Assembly: GCA_030285985.1 (NCBI GenBank)
Contig: CP127384.1
Span: 186,001-250,000, forward strand
Reading direction: 5' to 3'
DNA: 64,000 nt
Source of the DNA: Aquidulcibacter paucihalophilus
Lineage (GTDB): Bacteria > Pseudomonadota > Alphaproteobacteria > Caulobacterales > Caulobacteraceae
Positions 24,082 through 35,429 of the stretch are shown piece after piece. Both the position numbers and the translations under genes were made by a program. The notes under the pieces were generated by a model. The model was given only the letters and a program-made list of their open reading frames with translations, made no database searches and was not told the DNA's origin. How positions within the stretch are numbered: the first letter of the stretch is position 1; every line of letters starts with the position of its first letter.

Positions 24082-24680
24082 GACCTCAGCACTCCGGCCC
24101 GGCGGAGCTCCGCCAGCACAGGCCAGAGCGGCAGGCCCAGGACGGTGAAATAGTCGCCCTCAATGGCCTCGAACAACTGTGAGCCCATGCCCTCGAGCCG
24201 ATAGGCCCCGACGCAGTGCAGCAGGGCCTCGCCCTCCGCCGCCAGATAGGCGTCGAGGAAGGCGTCCGAAAAATCGCGCACCCGCATGGTCGCCGTGTCC
24301 ACGCCGGACCAGACGATCTGGCCGTTGCGGGCGAGGGCCGCGCCGGAATGCAGTTGATGCGTCCGACCGCGCATGGTGCCCAGCCGGGTGCGGGCGTCGG
24401 CGAGCGAGGCCGCCTTGGAGACGAGACCGCCGTCGAAAGCGAGGGTCTGGTCCGCGCCCAGGACCCAGGCGTCGCCGTCGTGGCGCGACACCGCCAGCGC
24501 CTTGACCCGCGCCAGTTCGACGGCAAGCCCCGCCGCATCGGCCGGATCATGGACAGCCTTGACCGCGTCCTCATCCACATCCGCAACCTGGACAGAGAAG
24601 GTCACGCCGGCGTCGGCCAGCATCGACCGCCGGGCCGCGCTTTTCGAGGCGAGGATCAGGCGTTCCGACGGTGCGCTCAC
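24078..24680 (-). CDS. maf: Maf-family nucleotide pyrophosphatase
   Basis: 200 residues from a GTG at 24680 that overlaps the ppsR stop as GTGA; the longer upstream frame is ppsR sequence in another frame. Maf features: ILASKSAARRSMLADAG, the VLGADQTLAFDG motif with catalytic Asp, MRGRTHQLHSGAALA and YRLEGMGSQLFEAIEGDYF. The family hydrolyses non-canonical or methylated NTPs to restrict incorporation or division; the exact substrate class is uncertain. Confidence 0.9.
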   Translation of the reverse strand: MSAPSERLILASKSAARRSMLADAGVTFSVQVADVDEDAVKAVHDPADAAGLAVELARVKALAVSRHDGDAWVLGADQTLAFDGGLVSKAASLADARTRLGTMRGRTHQLHSGAALARNGQIVWSGVDTATMRVRDFSDAFLDAYLAAEGEALLHCVGAYRLEGMGSQLFEAIEGDYFTVLGLPLWPVLAELRRAGVLRS

Positions 24681-25555
24681 CAGGCCGCTCCCAGACGCCG
24701 TGTGCGGCGCTCGTTCAGAAGGTTGATGATGGCGGCCGCTGTCTCCTCGACCGACCGGCGGGTCACATCGATGACCGGCCAGCCGCGGCGCTCGAAGGCG
24801 CGCCGGGCCTTGACCGTCTCCTCGCGCACGGCGTCGTGGTCGACATAGGCGCTGGCCCGGTTGGCGTTCAGGCCGTCCAGCCGGTTCTTGCGGATCTGCA
24901 CCAGACGGTCCGGCGAGACCGTCAGGCCGACCACCAGAGGATTCTTCAGCCCGACGAGACGTTCGCCATCCTCCTGACCGGGCACCAGGGGCACATTGGC
25001 AGCGCGGATGCCGCGGTGGGCCAGATAGATGCAGGTCGGGGTCTTGGACGTGCGACTGACCCCGCACAGGACCACATCGGCGCCCTCCAGCTGCTCGGAC
25101 GTGCCCTGGCCGTCGTCATGGGCCATGGCGTAGTCCAGCGCCGAGATGCGGTTGAAATAGTCGGTGTCCAGCGCGTGCTGGGCCCCGACCCGCGTCGACA
25201 GGGCCGCGCCGAGATAGCGGGACAGGGCGCCGACCAGCGGGTCGAGCGCCGCGATCTGGGGCATGTCGAGGGTGCGGCAGCCGTCTTCCAGCTGTTCGCG
25301 CAGCTCGCGGTCGACGAGGGTGTGCAGGACCACGCCGGGCGATGCCGCGACCTCTTCCAGCACCCGCTCCATCTGTTTGGCGGAGCGGACGAGGGCATAG
25401 ATGTGCTCGATCGGGATCACGCCGTCGAACCGGGCCACCACGGCCTTGGCCATGGCGTTCAGGGTCTCGCCGGTGGAGTCGGACACCAGGTGGACATGGA
25501 AATAGGTCGCCAGCCGCGAAGGGGCCGGGCCGCGGCCTGATGAACCCGGCGTCAT
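24677..25555 (-). CDS. ppsR: PEP synthase regulatory kinase/pyrophosphorylase (DUF299)
   Basis: 292 residues. Bifunctional enzyme that phosphorylates and dephosphorylates phosphoenolpyruvate synthase (or PPDK). Signatures: HLVSDSTGETLNAMAKAVVA near the N-terminus, the P-loop-like CGVSRTSKTPTCIYLAHRG (~155-175), GLTVSPDRLVQIRKNRL, and AYVDHDAVREE. The ATG at 25555 adds ~15 residues before the conserved part. First gene left of the origin region; in Caulobacter this family gene also flanks Cori. Confidence 0.92.
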   Translation of the reverse strand: MTPGSSGRGPAPSRLATYFHVHLVSDSTGETLNAMAKAVVARFDGVIPIEHIYALVRSAKQMERVLEEVAASPGVVLHTLVDRELREQLEDGCRTLDMPQIAALDPLVGALSRYLGAALSTRVGAQHALDTDYFNRISALDYAMAHDDGQGTSEQLEGADVVLCGVSRTSKTPTCIYLAHRGIRAANVPLVPGQEDGERLVGLKNPLVVGLTVSPDRLVQIRKNRLDGLNANRASAYVDHDAVREETVKARRAFERRGWPVIDVTRRSVEETAAAIINLLNERRTRRLGAAW

Positions 25556-25743
25556 CGGCGGCTGTCCATGATTGCGAGACTCCTGTGGACGGCCCGGGGC
25601 GCCAGTGGTGCGCCGTCGGAGCCGAAGGGTGGGTCTTTTCCTATAGCGGCGCCGGAGACGGGCTGCGAGCGGGGACAGAGGTGGATGAGGCGCCCCGCAT
25701 CGCGGTCTTTCATCCCAAGCCCCTCCCTCGGCGCCGATCCGCC

Positions 25744-25752
25744 TGTGGAGAT
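25744..25752 (-). promoter_or_regulatory. DnaA-box-like 9-mer
   Basis: TGTGGAGAT is ATCTCCACA on the minus strand, 7 of 9 matches to TTATCCACA. It lies directly before the first CtrA box. A weak candidate by itself. Confidence 0.35.
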
Positions 25753-25754
25753 CC

Positions 25755-25769
25755 TTAATGAGACGTTAA
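25755..25769. promoter_or_regulatory. CtrA-type box 1
   Basis: TTAATGAGACGTTAA is an exact match to the Caulobacter CtrA consensus TTAA-N7-TTAA. In Caulobacter phosphorylated CtrA binds such boxes in Cori and blocks initiation. Confidence 0.7.
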
Positions 25770-25815
25770 CGGCGCCCAGCCCCGGATCGACGTGGTCGGC
25801 TCTGCGATCCCGTCG

Positions 25816-25830
25816 TTAAGGCCTCGTTAA
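25816..25830. promoter_or_regulatory. CtrA-type box 2
   Basis: TTAAGGCCTCGTTAA, a second exact TTAA-N7-TTAA match 61 bp from the first. The DnaA-like TTATCCCCG begins three bases after it, so CtrA and DnaA could compete here. TTAA is rare in this GC-rich DNA, so two exact boxes in one gap are unlikely by chance. Confidence 0.72.
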
Positions 25831-25833
25831 GAC

Positions 25834-25842
25834 TTATCCCCG
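25834..25842 (+). promoter_or_regulatory. DnaA-box-like 9-mer TTATCCCCG
   Basis: 7 of 9 matches to TTATCCACA. A related 9-mer, TTGTCCCCG, occurs at 25926-25934 on the same strand, so TTRTCCCCG may be a weak DnaA site class in this origin. Confidence 0.4.
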
Positions 25843-25961
25843 GTTTCACCAGCCCCGTTAAAGCCCGGCGCGCCGACGGTGACAGTTTGCGGAAAACCCG
25901 TCCGCATCCGCTGCAAACCGCCCGTTTGTCCCCGCCATCCCCGGTCCTGCCTTCTACTTCC

Positions 25962-25986
25962 GACTCTCAAGACTCTTTTCTTGAGA
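25962..25986. promoter_or_regulatory. Hairpin with paired GACTC sites in the origin / hemE leader
   Basis: TCTCAAGA (25965-25972) and TCTTGAGA (25979-25986) form a perfect 8-bp stem with loop CTCTTT. Two GACTC sites, at 25962 and 25971, are 9 bp apart and overlap the stem. In Caulobacter GANTC is methylated by CcrM and read by GcrA. Confidence 0.45.
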
Positions 25987-26054
25987 AGGATTGGAAGGGT
26001 GCGACACGGGACGGGGTTGAGCAGGACCCGGCCCCCCGGTAGGACCGGGGTCAC

Positions 26055-27101
26055 ATGACCGTCTCCCCCGATACGCCCCTGTTGCTCAAGGTTCTCGCCG
26101 GCGAGGCGACGACGCGACCGCCTGTATGGTTCATGCGTCAGGCCGGGCGCTACCTGCCGGAATACCGGGCACTTCGGGCGACGACGCCCGACTTCATCTC
26201 CTTCTGCCTCGATCCCGAGAAGGCGGCTGAGGCGACCCTGCAGCCGATGCGGCGGTTTGGCTTCGACGCCGCCATCGTCTTCGCCGACATCCTGCTGATA
26301 CCCCAGGCCCTCGGGCAGGAGGTCTGGTTCGAGGCCGGTGAGGGACCGCGCCTCGGTGCCCTGCCGCCGGTCGAGGGCATGCGCGACCTGACCGCGGGTG
26401 CCGGTGAGGCCCTGGGCCAGATCGGCCAGACCCTGTCGCTGGTGCGGGCACAGCTGGAGCCGGAGCGGGCGCTGATCGGCTTCGCGGGCGCGCCCTGGAC
26501 CGTGGCGACCTATATGCTCGACGGGGAAGCCCGGACGATCGGCAAGGGCGAGCGGGCCCAGGCCCGGACCTATGCCTATGCCGAGCCGGAGAAGGTCGCG
26601 GCCCTGCTCGAGGTCCTGGTCGAGGCCACGGCGCATTATCTGAAGATGCAGGCCGACGCCGGGGCCCAGGTGCTGAAGATCTTCGAGAGCTGGGCCGAGG
26701 GCCTGCCCGAAGACCTGTTCGAAAGTCTCGTCCTGCGGCCGCACCAGAAGCTGGTGGCCCGTGTGCGCGAACTGGGCGTCACCGTTCCCCTGATCGGCTT
26801 CCCGCGGGGCTCGGCGGCGCTGGCGGAACGGTATGCCGCCGAGGTCGATGTTCAGGCTGTGGCGCTGGATACCGCCTGTCCGCTGGAGATCGGCCGTCGC
26901 GTTCAGGCCATCAAGCCCATCCAGGGCGCGCTTGATCCCCTGCTGCTGCGGGCCGGCGGGCCGATGCTGGACCGCCGTGTCGACCAGCTGCTCGAGGCCT
27001 GGGGGCAGGGGCCGTGGATCTTCAATCTCGGACACGGCATCCTGCCCGACGTGCCGATCGCCCATGTCGAGCAGGTTCTGAAACGGATCGGCGCACAATG
27101 A
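26055..27101 (+). CDS. hemE: Uroporphyrinogen decarboxylase
   Basis: 348 residues; converts uroporphyrinogen III to coproporphyrinogen III in heme synthesis. Family signature WFMRQAGRYLPEYRALR with the substrate arginines, FADILLIPQALG with the catalytic Asp region, GFAGAPWTVATYMLDG, KIFESWAEGL, and a C-terminal NLGHGILPDVPIAHVE. First gene right of the origin; in Caulobacter its promoter lies inside Cori. The stop overlaps the hemH start as ATGA. Confidence 0.96.
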   Translation: MTVSPDTPLLLKVLAGEATTRPPVWFMRQAGRYLPEYRALRATTPDFISFCLDPEKAAEATLQPMRRFGFDAAIVFADILLIPQALGQEVWFEAGEGPRLGALPPVEGMRDLTAGAGEALGQIGQTLSLVRAQLEPERALIGFAGAPWTVATYMLDGEARTIGKGERAQARTYAYAEPEKVAALLEVLVEATAHYLKMQADAGAQVLKIFESWAEGLPEDLFESLVLRPHQKLVARVRELGVTVPLIGFPRGSAALAERYAAEVDVQAVALDTACPLEIGRRVQAIKPIQGALDPLLLRAGGPMLDRRVDQLLEAWGQGPWIFNLGHGILPDVPIAHVEQVLKRIGAQ

Positions 27102-30331: not shown

Positions 30332-30346
30332 CGGCGGTATGGCCGC

Positions 30347-30362
30347 TGTTTCACGTGAAACA
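30347..30362. other. parS site 1 (perfect)
   Basis: TGTTTCACGTGAAACA, a perfect 16-bp palindrome identical to the widespread ParB-binding parS consensus. Located 16 bp after the rho stop and about 4.5 kb from the origin. Confidence 0.93.
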
Positions 30363-30416
30363 CCCTCAAGCAGCCCAGCGCCGCGCGCAGGGCGTCAGGG
30401 CAAAAGGAGTGGCGCG

Positions 30417-30644
30417 ATGAAGGTCAATGTCGAGGTCGAATGCACACCGGAGGAGGCCCGCGCCTTCCTCGGCCTGCCCAATGTCGAGCCGCTGAACGAT
30501 CATCTCGTCGCCGAGATGAAGCGCCGCATGGACGAGAACATCACGGCCATGCAGCCCGACGAACTGATGAAGACCTGGACCAGTTTCGGCATGCAGGCCC
30601 AGGACCAGTTCCGCAAACTGATGGAAGCGGCCGTCAAGCCGTGA
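30417..30644 (+). CDS. Small conserved protein (DUF6489-like)
   Basis: 75 residues with an AAGGAG ribosome-binding site at 30403-30408 and start MKVNVEVECTPEEARAFLGL. One strand followed by amphipathic helices (LNDHLVAEMKRRMDENITAM and WTSFGMQAQDQFRKLMEAAV). I recognise it as the conserved alphaproteobacterial family tentatively DUF6489; no function is known. It sits between rho and mnmE. Confidence 0.8.
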   Translation: MKVNVEVECTPEEARAFLGLPNVEPLNDHLVAEMKRRMDENITAMQPDELMKTWTSFGMQAQDQFRKLMEAAVKP

Positions 30645-30690
30645 AGGACGGACGCCGGAGGCGTTTCGACGACGCCCACTTCCAGGAGAC

Positions 30691-30745
30691 CCCTCCCGTC
30701 ACGCCGCAAGGGCGGCGTGCCACCTCCCCCATAAAGGGGGAGGGG
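30691..30745. repeat. Double-hairpin element in the mnmE leader
   Basis: First hairpin CACGCCGC-AAGG-GCGGCGTG (30700-30719). Second hairpin CCTCCCCC-ATAAA-GGGGGAGG (30723-30743). An upstream CCCTCCC (30691) could pair with the last G run instead. It ends 10 bp before the mnmE ATG and so adjoins its ribosome-binding site. From memory, the ATAAA-loop hairpin resembles a common intergenic repeat of Caulobacterales. Confidence 0.7.
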
Positions 30746-30755
30746 ACGGCTTGAG

Positions 30756-32063
30756 ATGACTGACACCATCTTCGCCCTCGCCACCCCGCCGGGTCGCGGG
30801 GCGATCGCCATTCTGCGCCTGTCGGGGCCGGGGACTGACGCCGCCCTGACCGCGCTCGGTGCCGGCGGGCTCAAGGCGCGATACGCCGCGCTCCGGGCCC
30901 TCATCCACGATGGCCGGTCCATCGACCAGGCGCTCGTCCTCCGCTTCCCGGCACCGAACTCCTACACCGGTGAGGACTGCGCCGAACTTCACCTGCACGG
31001 CGGCCGTGCCGTGGTCGAGGGGGCGAGTGAGGCCCTTGTCGCCCTCGGCCTGCGTCCCGCGGACCCGGGGGAGTTCACCCGCCGGGCCTTCGAGAACGGC
31101 CGCATGGACCTGGCCCAGGCCGAGGCGGTCGCCGATCTGATCGACGCGGAGACCGCGGCCCAGGCCAGCCAGGCCCTCGGCCAACTCGATGGGGCCCTGA
31201 GCCAGACCTATGCGGGGTTCCGCCGCGACCTCCTGACCGCCCTCGCCCTGGTCGAGGCCGAGATCGACTTCCCGGATGAGGAGGTCCCCGACAATCTCGC
31301 GCGCTCCGCCGGGCCGGTGCTCGATCGCCTGATCGCGGACCTGAAGGCCGCCCTCGCGGACGCCCGCCGCGGCGAACGGGTGCGGGAGGGCTATCGCATC
31401 GTCCTGATCGGTGAGACCAATGCCGGCAAGTCGTCGCTCTTCAATGCCCTCGTCGCCCGTGAGGCCGCCATCGTCACCCCGATCGCCGGGACGACGCGCG
31501 ATGTGCTCGACGCCGACCTGATCATCGGCGGCTATGCCGTGACCCTGTCCGACACCGCCGGACTGCGCGCCAGCACCGATCCGGTCGAGGCCGAGGGTGT
31601 CCGCCGCGCCCGGGCGCGGGCTGAAGCGGCGGACCTTCGGCTGTGGGTCCGCGGTCCCGACGACGCCGAGGGCGACGCAGCGGGTTTCGCGCGGCCCGGC
31701 GACCTTTTGGTCCGTACCAAGGCCGATCTGGGCGCGGCCCCGTCAGTGGCCGGGTACGAAACCCTGTCGATCAGCACCGCGACCGGGCGGGGTCTGGCGG
31801 ACCTCCACGACTGGATCGCCGCACGGCTCGCCCGGGACCTTTACGGCGCAGATTTTCCGGCTGTCACGCGCGAGAGACATCGCCGTCGTCTGGCCGAAGC
31901 CCTGGTAGCGGCCGAGGCGGGGCGGGCGGCGCTCGAGGTGGCAGCCGAAATGGCCGGCGACGACCTCCGCCGGGCGGCCGATGCCCTGGCCCGGGTCACG
32001 GGCGCGATTGGCGTTGAGGATATTCTCGGCGAGGTCTTCTCGACCTTCTGCATCGGCAAGTGA
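30756..32063 (+). CDS. mnmE: tRNA modification GTPase MnmE
   Basis: 435 residues; with MnmG makes cmnm5U34 in tRNAs. N-terminal THF-binding domain (TIFALATPPGRGAIAILRLS ... NSYTGEDCAELHLHGG), helical domain, then an inserted G domain with G1 GETNAGKSS (219-227), TPIAGTTRDVLD (G2) and LSDTAGLRASTD (G3). The C-terminal catalytic CIGK is at 432-435. A parS site starts 3 bp after its stop; mnmG follows. Confidence 0.97.
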   Translation: MTDTIFALATPPGRGAIAILRLSGPGTDAALTALGAGGLKARYAALRALIHDGRSIDQALVLRFPAPNSYTGEDCAELHLHGGRAVVEGASEALVALGLRPADPGEFTRRAFENGRMDLAQAEAVADLIDAETAAQASQALGQLDGALSQTYAGFRRDLLTALALVEAEIDFPDEEVPDNLARSAGPVLDRLIADLKAALADARRGERVREGYRIVLIGETNAGKSSLFNALVAREAAIVTPIAGTTRDVLDADLIIGGYAVTLSDTAGLRASTDPVEAEGVRRARARAEAADLRLWVRGPDDAEGDAAGFARPGDLLVRTKADLGAAPSVAGYETLSISTATGRGLADLHDWIAARLARDLYGADFPAVTRERHRRRLAEALVAAEAGRAALEVAAEMAGDDLRRAADALARVTGAIGVEDILGEVFSTFCIGK

Positions 32064-32065
32064 GC

Positions 32066-32081
32066 CGTTTCACGTGAAACA
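32066..32081. other. parS site 2
   Basis: CGTTTCACGTGAAACA, the parS palindrome with one changed end base, in the gap between mnmE and mnmG. Confidence 0.92.
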
Positions 32082-32132
32082 GACGTCCGGCCAAGGTGGC
32101 GGTTGGGCCGGTTTTGCCCTATGTGCCCGCCC

Positions 32133-33989
32133 ATGAAGGGTTTCGACGTCATTGTCATCGGCGGCGGTCACGCCGGCTGCGAGGCCGCGGCAGCGTCCGC
32201 GCGCGCGGGCGCCCGTACTGTGCTGTTGACCCAGAAGCTCGAAACCATCGGCGAAATGTCCTGCAACCCGGCCATCGGCGGCCTCGGCAAGGGACATCTG
32301 GTCCGTGAGATCGATGCGATGGACGGGTTGATGGCCCGGCTCGGCGACCGGGCTGGGATCCAGTTTCGCCTGCTCAACCGGTCGAAGGGTGCGGCGGTCC
32401 AGGGTCCGCGCAGCCAGATCGATCGCCGCCTGTACCGCGAGGCCATGCAGGCCGAACTGGCCCAGACGCCCAATCTCACGCTGATGGCCGGGACGGCCGA
32501 GCGGTTGATGCTGGACGGTGAGCGCGTCGTCGGCGTGGTGACCGGGGAGGGGACCGAGGTCCGTGCGGCCGCCGTCGTCCTGACCACGGGGACCTTCCTC
32601 AACGGCGTGATCCACAAGGGTGACCAGCGCATCCCCGCCGGCCGACACGGCGAAGCGCCCTCGACCGGTCTCGCCGCAGACCTCTATGGCGCCGGCCTGC
32701 AGATGGGCCGGCTCAAGACCGGCACACCCGCCCGGCTGGATGGCCGAACCATCGGCTGGGACCGGCTGGAGATGCAGCAGGCGGACGCCGAGCCGGTCCC
32801 GTTCAGCTTCCTGACCGACCGGATCGACGTGCCCCAGATCGCTTGCGGCGTGACCCATACGACCGAGGCGACCCACCGGATCATCGCCGACAACCTCGGC
32901 GACAGCGCGGTCTATGGCGGCCATCTCTCCGGTCGTGGGCCCCGCTACTGCCCCTCGATCGAGGACAAGGTGGTCCGGTTCGCTGACAAGACCTCGCACC
33001 AGATCTTCCTTGAGCCCGAGGGACTGGACGATCCGACCGTCTATCCGAACGGCATTTCGACCTCGGTATCGGACGCGACCCAGGCCGCCTTCCTGCGCAC
33101 CATCCCCGGCCTGGAGTCGGTCGAGGTGTTTCGCTTCGGCTACGCCATCGAATACGACTATGTCGATCCGCGCGAACTGACCCCGGCGCTGGAGGTCAAG
33201 AAGCGTCCCGGCCTGTATCTGGCCGGCCAGATCAATGGCACCACAGGCTATGAGGAGGCGGGGGCCCAGGGGCTGCTGGCCGGGCTGAACGCCGCCCGCG
33301 CCGCCGCCGGGTCCGATCCGATCATTCTCGGCCGCGACCAGGCCTATATCGGCGTGATGGTCGACGACCTGGTCACACGGGGTGTGACCGAGCCCTACCG
33401 GATGTTCACCAGTCGGGCCGAATACCGGTTGACCCTGCGCGCCGACAATGCCGATCAACGGTTGACCCCACTGGCAATCAACAGCGGACTCGTCTCGCGA
33501 CAACGTGTTCTTGCCTTCACGGCGAAGGCTGGGCAGTTGGCCGAAGCCTCGGTTGTTTCACGTGAAACGGTGTTCACGCCCAAGCAGGCCGCATCTCTCG
33601 GCATCCACGTCAACGCCGACGGCCAGCGCCGCTCCATCCGCGACCTTCTCGCCTTCCCCGGTGTGACCCTGGAGACCTTCGTGCCGGTCAGGCCGGAGAT
33701 CGCCGGCTGGTCCGCCCAGGTCCGCCAGCAGATCGAAATTGACGCCGGCTATGCGGGCTACCTCGACCGCCAGGCCTCGGACGCTGCGGCGCTGCGGCAC
33801 GAAGAGGCGCTCGCCCTGCCCGTGGACCTCGACTACGCCGCCATCGGCAGCCTCTCCAACGAGGTCCGCGAGAAGCTGACCCTGATCCAGCCGCGTACCC
33901 TGGGGCAGGCCGGCCGCATCGAGGGGATGACCCCCGGTGCCCTGACGGCCCTGCTGTCGCATGTGAAGAAGTCGAGGGTTTCGGCGTGA
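32133..33989 (+). CDS. mnmG: tRNA uridine-5-carboxymethylaminomethyl modification enzyme MnmG
   Basis: 618 residues from [20 protein letters not shown] (32133); an ATG 12 bp earlier is possible and no clear ribosome-binding site decides. FAD-binding [30 protein letters not shown] with the conserved Cys, [22 protein letters not shown], the second Cys motif RYCPSIEDK and [20 protein letters not shown]. Partner of MnmE. Codons 475-479 (V-S-R-E-T) carry parS site 3. The stop overlaps the rsmG GTG start. Confidence 0.96.
33554..33569. other. parS site 3, inside mnmG
   Basis: TGTTTCACGTGAAACG lies in frame within mnmG and encodes Val-Ser-Arg-Glu-Thr (residues 475-479). One end base differs from the perfect palindrome. 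Confidence 0.9.
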
Positions 33990-34618
33990 GCACCCATCCC
34001 GACGCCGCACAATTCCAGAGCCTGCGTGCCGCCACGCCAGCCCAGATGGCCGACCTCGAAACCCTGATCGAGCGGCTGACCGCCGCCAATGCCGTCATGA
34101 ACCTGATCGGGCCCGAAACCCTGCCGGACGTCTGGAACCGGCACATCTTCGACTCTGCCCAACTGCTCGACCTCGCGCCGGAGGCGGCGACCTGGGCGGA
34201 CCTCGGGGCCGGCGCCGGCTTCCCCGGCCTGGTCCTCGCCATCCTGCTCAAGGACCGGGCCGACAGCCATGTCTGGCTGGTCGACAGTCTCGGAAAGCGT
34301 TGCCGGTTCCTGCAGGAGGTGGTCGACGCCCTGTCGCTTCGCGCCACGGTGGTCAACGGCCGGGCAGAGGAACAGCGCATCAAGGTCGACATCGTCACGG
34401 CCCGCGCCCTGGCACCGATGGACCGGCTGCTGGGCTATGCACAGCCTTATCTACAGCGCGGCGCACAGGGGCTGTTTCTCAAGGGGGAAAAGGCCGAGGC
34501 TGAGTTGATCGAGGCCCGCAAGGTCTGGCATTTCGACAGCACCCTCTCCGTCTCGCGCAGCGATCCGCGCGGCCGTATCGTTTCCGTCCGGAGTCTCCGA
34601 CGTGTCCAAGTCCGGTAA
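33986..34618 (+). CDS. rsmG: 16S rRNA (guanine527-N7)-methyltransferase RsmG
   Basis: 210 residues from a GTG at 33986 that overlaps the mnmG stop. SAM-binding [39 protein letters not shown] (motif II) and VNGRAEEQ; the N-terminal [20 protein letters not shown] matches the family. The end overlaps parA by 17 bp. Loss of RsmG gives low-level streptomycin resistance in several bacteria. Confidence 0.95.
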
Positions 34619-35429
34619 GACCCCCCAAGCCCGTACAAGGGTTCTGGCGGTCTCCAATCAGAAGGGCGGGGTGGGCAAGACCACCACGGCGATCAACCTC
34701 GGCACGGCGCTCGCCGCGATCGGCGAGAAGGTGCTCATCGTCGACATGGACCCGCAGGGCAATGCCTCCACCGGCCTGGGTGTTCCACGTGAAACACGAC
34801 GGGTGACCATCTATGACGTCATCGTAGACGGGCGTTCGGTCGATGACTCCGCTGTGCCGACGACGGTCCCCGGCCTCCATATCGTGCCCGCCGATGCCGA
34901 TATGTCCGGCGTCGAGATCGAGCTCAGCCAGGCCGATCGCCGCTCCTTCCGCCTGCGCGACGCGCTGCAGGGGCAGGGGGCCGAAGGGCAGACCCGGTAT
35001 GACTACGTCCTGATCGATTGCCCGCCCTCGCTCAACCTGCTGACGCTCAATGCCATGGCCGCCGCCGACGCCGTTCTGGTGCCGTTGCAGTGTGAGTTCT
35101 TCGCCCTTGAGGGCCTGACCCAGCTGATGAAGACCATCGAGATGGTCCGGCAGAGCCTGAACCCGACGCTGGAGATCCAGGGTCTGGTCCTGACCATGTA
35201 CGACCGGCGCAGCGCCCTGTCGGGCCAGGTGGCGGCGGATGTCCGCAGCCATTTCGGCGACAAGGTCTATGAGTCGGTGATCCCGCGGAACGTCCGGGTG
35301 GCTGAGGCCCCGTCATTCGGCAAGCCGGCCCTGATCTACGATCTGAAATGCGCCGGCAGCCAGGCCTATCTGCGCCTCGCGCGGGAGGTGGTGGCGCGCG
35401 AGAAAACCCGCCGGCTGCAGGCCGCGTGA
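34602..35429 (+). CDS. parA: Chromosome partitioning ATPase ParA
   Basis: 275 residues from a GTG at 34602 inside the end of rsmG. Deviant Walker A QKGGVGKTT (residues 19-27), Walker A' IVDMDPQGNASTGLG, Walker B VLIDCPPSLNLLT, then LTMYDRRSALSGQVAADVR and IPRNVRVAEAPSFGKPAL. Drives segregation of the origin region by its gradient with ParB. Residues 61-65 are encoded by parS site 4. Coupled tightly to rsmG and followed by parB after 28 bp. Confidence 0.97.
   Translation: MSKSGKTPQARTRVLAVSNQKGGVGKTTTAINLGTALAAIGEKVLIVDMDPQGNASTGLGVPRETRRVTIYDVIVDGRSVDDSAVPTTVPGLHIVPADADMSGVEIELSQADRRSFRLRDALQGQGAEGQTRYDYVLIDCPPSLNLLTLNAMAAADAVLVPLQCEFFALEGLTQLMKTIEMVRQSLNPTLEIQGLVLTMYDRRSALSGQVAADVRSHFGDKVYESVIPRNVRVAEAPSFGKPALIYDLKCAGSQAYLRLAREVVAREKTRRLQAA
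34781..34796. other. parS site 4, inside parA
   Basis: TGTTCCACGTGAAACA lies in parA codons 60-65 and encodes Val-Pro-Arg-Glu-Thr. One base differs from the perfect palindrome. Confidence 0.88.

Follow-up and report, generated by a model that had tools for sequence, protein, structure and literature searches.

Genomic Context of the ppsR–hemE Gap

The window, i.e., the whole stretch of DNA analysed (64,000 nucleotides), corresponds to bases 186,001–250,000 of a 3,097,386-bp genome, which consists of one contig with a completeness of 100% and was handled as a circle. The closest named hemE relatives of the host genome belong to Brevundimonas. According to the ORF coordinates of the window, the divergent genes ppsR (minus strand) and hemE (plus strand) are separated by a gap of 499 bp (25556..26054). 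An origin had been predicted here at the position of Cori, and the gap does lie exactly between the two genes, with the coordinates being correct. The expected divergence of the surrounding genes was also found: a rough gene finder placed all 10 genes with a low end at 26–36 kb on the plus strand and seven of the eight genes at 19–25.6 kb on the minus strand. The ppsR product scored 158 with the model NF049928 (PpsR), under its cut-off of 350, and passed the cut-off of NF003742. The features of the region are as follows.

24677..25555, minus strand: ppsR, left boundary gene, encoding a PPDK/PEP synthase regulator (called COG1806/DUF299 in older papers); 320.8 bits with NCBIfam NF003742 (cut-off 225)
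25556..26054, no strand assigned: predicted Cori-type chromosome replication origin, the ppsR–hemE gap (motifs, polarity, parS, conservation)
25584..25589, minus strand: TCCACA core near the ppsR start (motif match)
25670..25675, minus strand: TCCCCG core, in the same place in 9/16 aligned gaps (by eye)
25744..25752, minus strand: DnaA-like box A, ATCTCCACA, 2 bp from CtrA box 1
25755..25769, no strand assigned: CtrA box 1, TTAATGAGACGTTAA, exact TTAA-N7-TTAA
25816..25830, no strand assigned: CtrA box 2, TTAAGGCCTCGTTAA, exact TTAA-N7-TTAA, 3 bp ahead of DnaA-like box B
25834..25842, plus strand: DnaA-like box B, TTATCCCCG, a TTRTCCCCG 9-mer, 3 bp after CtrA box 2
25926..25934, plus strand: DnaA-like box C1, TTGTCCCCG, a TTRTCCCCG 9-mer, first member of a tandem pair
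25935..25943, plus strand: DnaA-like box C2, CCATCCCCG, second member of the tandem pair
25944..25995, no strand assigned: AT-richest segment of the gap (AT content reaching 54% within 50 bp), beside pair C; candidate unwinding region, by position only
26017..26045, plus strand: candidate promoter of hemE, TTGAGC-N17-TAGGAC, whose end is 9 bases ahead of the ATG; TTGAG in 16/16 aligned gaps
26055..27101, plus strand: hemE, right boundary gene; NCBIfam TIGR01464, 362.5 bits, cut-off 303
30347, 32066, 33554 and 34781 (span 30347..34796), no strand assigned: four parS-like sites, the only ones of the genome at two or fewer mismatches

The G+C content of the gap is 65.3%, and the majority of the sampled 20-kb stretches of the genome have 65–70%. 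Two stretches with a low G+C content, at genome positions 1,040,000–1,059,999 (0.580) and 1,560,000–1,579,999 (0.608), are perhaps acquired islands.

Sequence Elements inside the Gap

Both the exact CtrA boxes and the DnaA-like 9-mers that had been predicted were found, and both are rare in the genome. Two of the six exact CtrA boxes of the genome are located in the gap, at 25755 and 25816, where about 0.001 would be expected per 499 bp at the genome rate; the reversed control of this box gave three matches genome-wide versus the six real ones. The gap also contains two of the 16 genomic TTRTCCCCG sites, TTATCCCCG at 25834 and TTGTCCCCG at 25926 (about 0.003 expected), the reversed control of the 9-mer giving 47 matches genome-wide versus 16. 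As anticipated, a perfect TTATCCACA box is absent from the gap and from the entire window. A search of the gap for the G-box TGATCCACA, the W-box TCCCCA and, at zero mismatches, the IHF consensus WATCAN5WTR also gave no matches. The predicted GANTC sites are present (three in the gap), but compared with the 90 sites of the entire window this is a mild enrichment.

The location of TTGAGC-N17-TAGGAC directly ahead of hemE suggests a promoter and a leaderless hemE transcript. The TCCACA core at 25584..25589 is perhaps a counterpart of the ppsR-proximal G-box of some relatives. An inverted repeat at about 25965–25987 was considered as a conserved hairpin and rejected, the best stem being 4.49 versus 4.69 in shuffles (65 gaps).

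parS Sites and Strand Polarity

The genome scan, at two or fewer mismatches, placed all four parS-like sites at genome positions 216,347–220,796, i.e., 4.3–8.7 kb from the gap. The same arrangement was found in all eight relatives with one- or two-contig genomes, where every listed parS-like site is located 4.2–8.9 kb from the hemE start; the reversed parS control matched once in each of two of these relatives. The dnaA gene is 137–530 kb from hemE in the same eight genomes (single contigs taken as circles), and in the host genome it is found at 556 kb, 344 kb from the gap. This bears on the possibility that the true origin is at or near dnaA, as in many bacteria, the gap being a CtrA/DnaA-controlled hemE–ppsR promoter region. 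The parS cluster sits at the gap, however, and the dnaA–hemE distance varies among the relatives, whereas the parS–hemE distance does not.

The parS-like sites at 30347 and 34781 are situated inside reading frames (30339–30644 and 34602–35429, the latter ParA-like by inspection), where they encode V-S-R-E-T and V-P-R-E-T, respectively. It seems that parS is written into the coding sequence here.

The two strands contain 302 and 303 copies of the sequence GGGCAGGG, which is strongly polar by position. Its sign change-point was fitted on the matches listed, up to 801 kb, and among these matches the best flip is at 198,750 (190.5–206.25 kb), 13 kb left of the gap. Within the same set, the fit at the gap is 2.2 lnL worse than the best one, just outside the 1.92-lnL interval, and the fit at dnaA is 20.9 lnL worse, which argues against an origin there. 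Among the matches listed, the change-point of the terminus falls at 1,739–1,764 kb; the position opposite the gap on the circle is 1,760,498. An equal-replichore scan with GGGNAGGG also disfavours dnaA: the score peaked at 225 (170 kb) and was 223 for the gap and 79 for dnaA, and the 200 permutations reached at most 111. The gene-orientation scan gave 117,753 for the gap versus 79,743 for dnaA.

For one of the relatives, G059, the equal-replichore scan with GGGNAGGG showed a tied maximum of 120 over an interval including its own gap (287 kb), with 78 at its own dnaA; a free-breakpoint fit placed the flip at 456–530 kb, off its gap.

The best GGGCAGGG flip, better by 2.2 lnL than the gap among the matches listed, would also agree with an origin that is outside the gap and no more than about 20 kb from it, for example leftward at this sign change. 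However, the difference in lnL hangs on two GGGCAGGG sites, 198,818 and 206,305, and the conserved boxes described below are within the gap. A k-mer strand classifier, trained elsewhere, found the local flip at window positions 26,094, 26,076 and 25,233 for k = 6, 7 and 8, respectively; it carries little weight, because it confounds replication polarity with gene direction and assigned an incorrect sign to the positions 104 and 468 kb. An origin in the neighbourhood of the gap, rather than in it, seems highly improbable.

GC Skew

The cumulative GC skew, a check suggested in the original prediction, did not agree with it. With 60 sampled stretches the minimum falls at about 582 kb and with 64 at about 602 kb, close to dnaA and away from the gap, an outcome that the prediction had itself named as contrary evidence. 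This displaced minimum counts against the gap as the origin. Gene direction was considered as the cause of the skew and rejected, since the correlation with the net coding strand was −0.01 over 64 sampled stretches.

Coding-strand-corrected four-fold sites gave a divided picture. The leading-strand G excess fits an origin in the gap on both replichores (right, −0.077 versus −0.161; left, −0.117 versus −0.172), but the contrast is greater for an origin at 480–630 kb, reaching 10,112 at 620 kb, with about 8,500 at dnaA and 7,063 at the gap. Together with the cumulative minimum, this is the evidence in favour of dnaA. With equal replichores, however, raw GC skew gave a score of 1.24 for an origin at 70 kb, 1.04 for the gap and 0.92 for dnaA, and since the gap outscores dnaA in this comparison, GC skew was judged to be a poor discriminator here. 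The cumulative minimum of the relative G059 is located at 2.835 Mb, away from its gap, and the equal-replichore GC scan of this genome has its top at about 190–230 kb (0.69), with 0.64 at its own gap and 0.50 at its own dnaA.

Weighed against the parS clustering, the polarity of GGGCAGGG and GGGNAGGG and the GGGCAGGG terminus, an origin at dnaA has very little probability. The same observations, along with the genome-wide rarity of the boxes and the conservation of the gap in relatives, support the original claim, and the ppsR–hemE gap can be regarded with high confidence as the predicted replication origin of this chromosome.

Conservation of the Gap in Brevundimonas

In 59 of the 80 hemE loci, including all 30 of L002–L031, ppsR was found upstream of hemE at a distance of no more than 842 nt. 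An alignment of 16 Brevundimonas-type gaps showed the conservation of CtrA box 2 with a TCCMC core, the tandem TCCCC pair and CTGTGGA, as well as of the minus-strand TCCCCG at 25670 and the TTGAG before hemE, at the frequencies listed above. A larger set comprised 75 gaps (the window, 59 of 60 other genomes and 15 named loci), from which eight duplicates were removed to leave 67 distinct ones; the genome G022 was excluded because its hemE match was incomplete. These 67 gaps are related to each other, and the counts given below are non-independent.

Exact CtrA boxes numbered 41 and were present in 35 of the 67 gaps. The 9-mer TTRTCCCCG was found 60 times in 42 gaps, compared with 1.1 in shuffles, and the longer core TCCACAG 58 times in 43 gaps, compared with 1.7. 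Among the shorter cores, TCCCCG occurred 236 times versus 73 in shuffles (3.2-fold), TCCCCA 54 times versus 29–30 (1.8-fold) and TCCACA 72 times versus 7–8. GANTC gave 211 versus about 164 in shuffles (counts halved, the site being palindromic), and the G-box TGATCCACA was absent from all 67 gaps. The hemE-proximal tandem pair was detected in 65 of the 67 gaps with a loose pattern (shuffle mean 5.3) and in 58 with a strict one (shuffle mean 0.7).

The arrangement of the boxes is conserved as well. A CtrA/DnaA-like pair was defined as a CtrA box (exact or TTAA-N7-TTA) followed after 0–8 bases by a TCCMC box, on either strand. Such pairs were found in 46 of the 67 gaps (74 instances) and in none of 30 shuffles, with a spacing of 3 (40 instances), 2 (24), 1 (6) or 0 (4). 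Both CtrA boxes of the window are paired in this way, box 1 with box A on the minus strand at 2 bp and box 2 with box B on the plus strand at 3 bp. The commonest CtrA-adjacent boxes are TTATCCCCG (18), TTTTCCACA (13) and TTGTCCACC (12); ATCTCCACA has this position six times.

Comparison with Caulobacter and Other Caulobacteraceae

Excerpts of the published accounts place the Cori of C. crescentus between hemE and COG1806 (PMC1914354) and report five CtrA sites there, together with two G-boxes (moderate) and a set of W-boxes (weak), with CtrA thought to exclude DnaA (PMC4468827, PMC4285127). Relative to Cori as presented in these excerpts, the gap has the same boundary genes, CtrA boxes by probable DnaA sites and parS within about 8–9 kb. 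It differs in having two exact CtrA boxes versus the five sites reported there, and in the use of TTRTCCCCG, TCCCCG and TCCACA cores instead of the TGATCCACA G-box, the TCCCCA W-box and the IHF consensus. The gap is very probably an origin in the location known from Caulobacter, with likely initiator sites spelled otherwise than the published Caulobacter ones. A contrast with textbook origins had been predicted, and it holds with respect to E. coli, but not within this family: degenerate weak DnaA sites, namely G-boxes with a T-to-G change and weak W-boxes, are already published for C. crescentus in the excerpts of PMC4468827 and PMC4285127.

The excerpted description of the basal unwinding system (PMC8287927) offers another comparison. 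The gap resembles it in its tandem DnaA-like boxes, which are followed after a short spacer by CTT-CTA-CTT (window positions 25951–25959), and differs from it in that the boxes have at least two mismatches to TTATCCACA. Runs of DnaA-trios in 65 gaps, with the orientation of the trio assumed, exceeded shuffles by the strictest of three definitions alone (1.25 versus 0.97, shuffle maximum 1.11).

For the outgroup, 40 of the 66 genomes matched outside Brevundimonas were combined with 16 named loci; after the removal of three without ppsR in reach and three duplicates, 50 gaps remained. TCCCCA is the most enriched TCCCC core here (122 versus 23 in shuffles, 5.3-fold), TCCCCG occurred 71 times versus 41, and TCCACA, with 62 versus 7, was similar to Brevundimonas. 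TGATCCACA was found four times. TTRTCCCCG is present in 15 of the 50 gaps, compared with 42 of 67 in Brevundimonas; it is commoner in Brevundimonas, yet not exclusive to the genus. The suggestion that this lineage uses degenerate DnaA sites of the TTRTCCCCG type stands insofar as the 9-mer is strongly conserved in the genus, but not as a peculiarity of it.

CtrA/DnaA-like pairs were detected in 17 of the 50 gaps (shuffles 0.03), with a spacing of mostly 4. The paired boxes are mostly of the TCCACA type (CTTTCCACA, five; TGATCCACA, four), and a CtrA box close to ppsR has TGATCCACA after it in three of nine gaps of the genus g21 and in the locus L015 (named Caulobacter). The plan is therefore common to both groups, but the spelling, strand and place of the sites differ.

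Nature and Spelling of the Putative Initiator Sites

The recognition segment of the host DnaA, GGRDHTTVLH, is identical to that of 1j1v, which we take to be E. coli DnaA; an altered recognition helix, considered as a cause of the respelling, was not seen in this comparison. It is therefore more likely that the respelling concerns the affinity of the sites than the specificity of the initiator. The same identity, together with the fact that positions 7 and 9 of the sites do not match TTATCCACA, would also suit another interpretation, namely that the TCCCCG sites of the origin belong to another conserved protein and not to DnaA. Yet the TTRTCC core is retained, and the CtrA-adjacent box varies (TTATCCCCG, TTGTCCCCG, TTGTCCACC, TTTTCCACA and others) while all of its forms are DnaA-box-like. 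Moreover, the W-boxes of Caulobacter (TCCCCA) bind DnaA weakly, according to the excerpted text of PMC4285127. Binding by a protein other than DnaA appears unlikely, though it deserves consideration.

It can be tentatively proposed that Brevundimonas dropped the G-box/W-box set of Caulobacter for its own mix of weak initiator sites, chiefly TTRTCCCCG (replaced by TTGTCCACC in certain relatives) and cores of the TCCACA type, located 2–3 bp from CtrA boxes, the DnaA recognition segment being unchanged. This proposal is slightly less likely than not, because TTRTCCCCG also occurs in the 15 outgroup gaps. If it is true, the origins of the family evolve by the respelling of low-affinity sites around a kept CtrA–DnaA spacing with the initiator unchanged. 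Since weak DnaA sites beside CtrA are known and the DnaA segment is standard, the gap would represent a respelled Cori-type origin and no new kind.

Proposed Functioning of the Origin

The functioning of the gap, including DnaA binding, exclusion by CtrA, unwinding and initiation, can be inferred by analogy with Cori. DnaA-ATP would bind the weak sites, i.e., boxes A and B (ATCTCCACA and TTATCCCCG), the tandem boxes C1 and C2 (TTGTCCCCG–CCATCCCCG) and additional cores of the TCCCCG or TCCACA type, and the resulting oligomer may open the AT-richer stretch between the tandem pair and hemE. Each of the two CtrA boxes has an outward-facing DnaA-like box at a distance of 2–3 bp, and phosphorylated CtrA (CtrA-P) could exclude DnaA until CtrA is removed. 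A CtrA orthologue, 88% identical to an approximate query sequence, is encoded at 803,630. Segregation of the newly formed origins would follow through ParB on the parS cluster, at a distance of 4–9 kb.

The excerpts of PMC7987155 and PMC9437464 do not treat the Brevundimonas origin, and no title among the best matches of the literature search names one; a computed prediction for one or another member of the genus (e.g., in DoriC) may exist. The natural series of weak DnaA-like sites by CtrA boxes is useful for asking if deliberately poor sites control initiation. The present analysis also places a probable origin for a common genus, in which four of the eight relatives examined have records starting at dnaA. 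These single-contig records (G035, G038, G052 and G059) start within 250 bases of dnaA, 255–530 kb from the ppsR–hemE gap.
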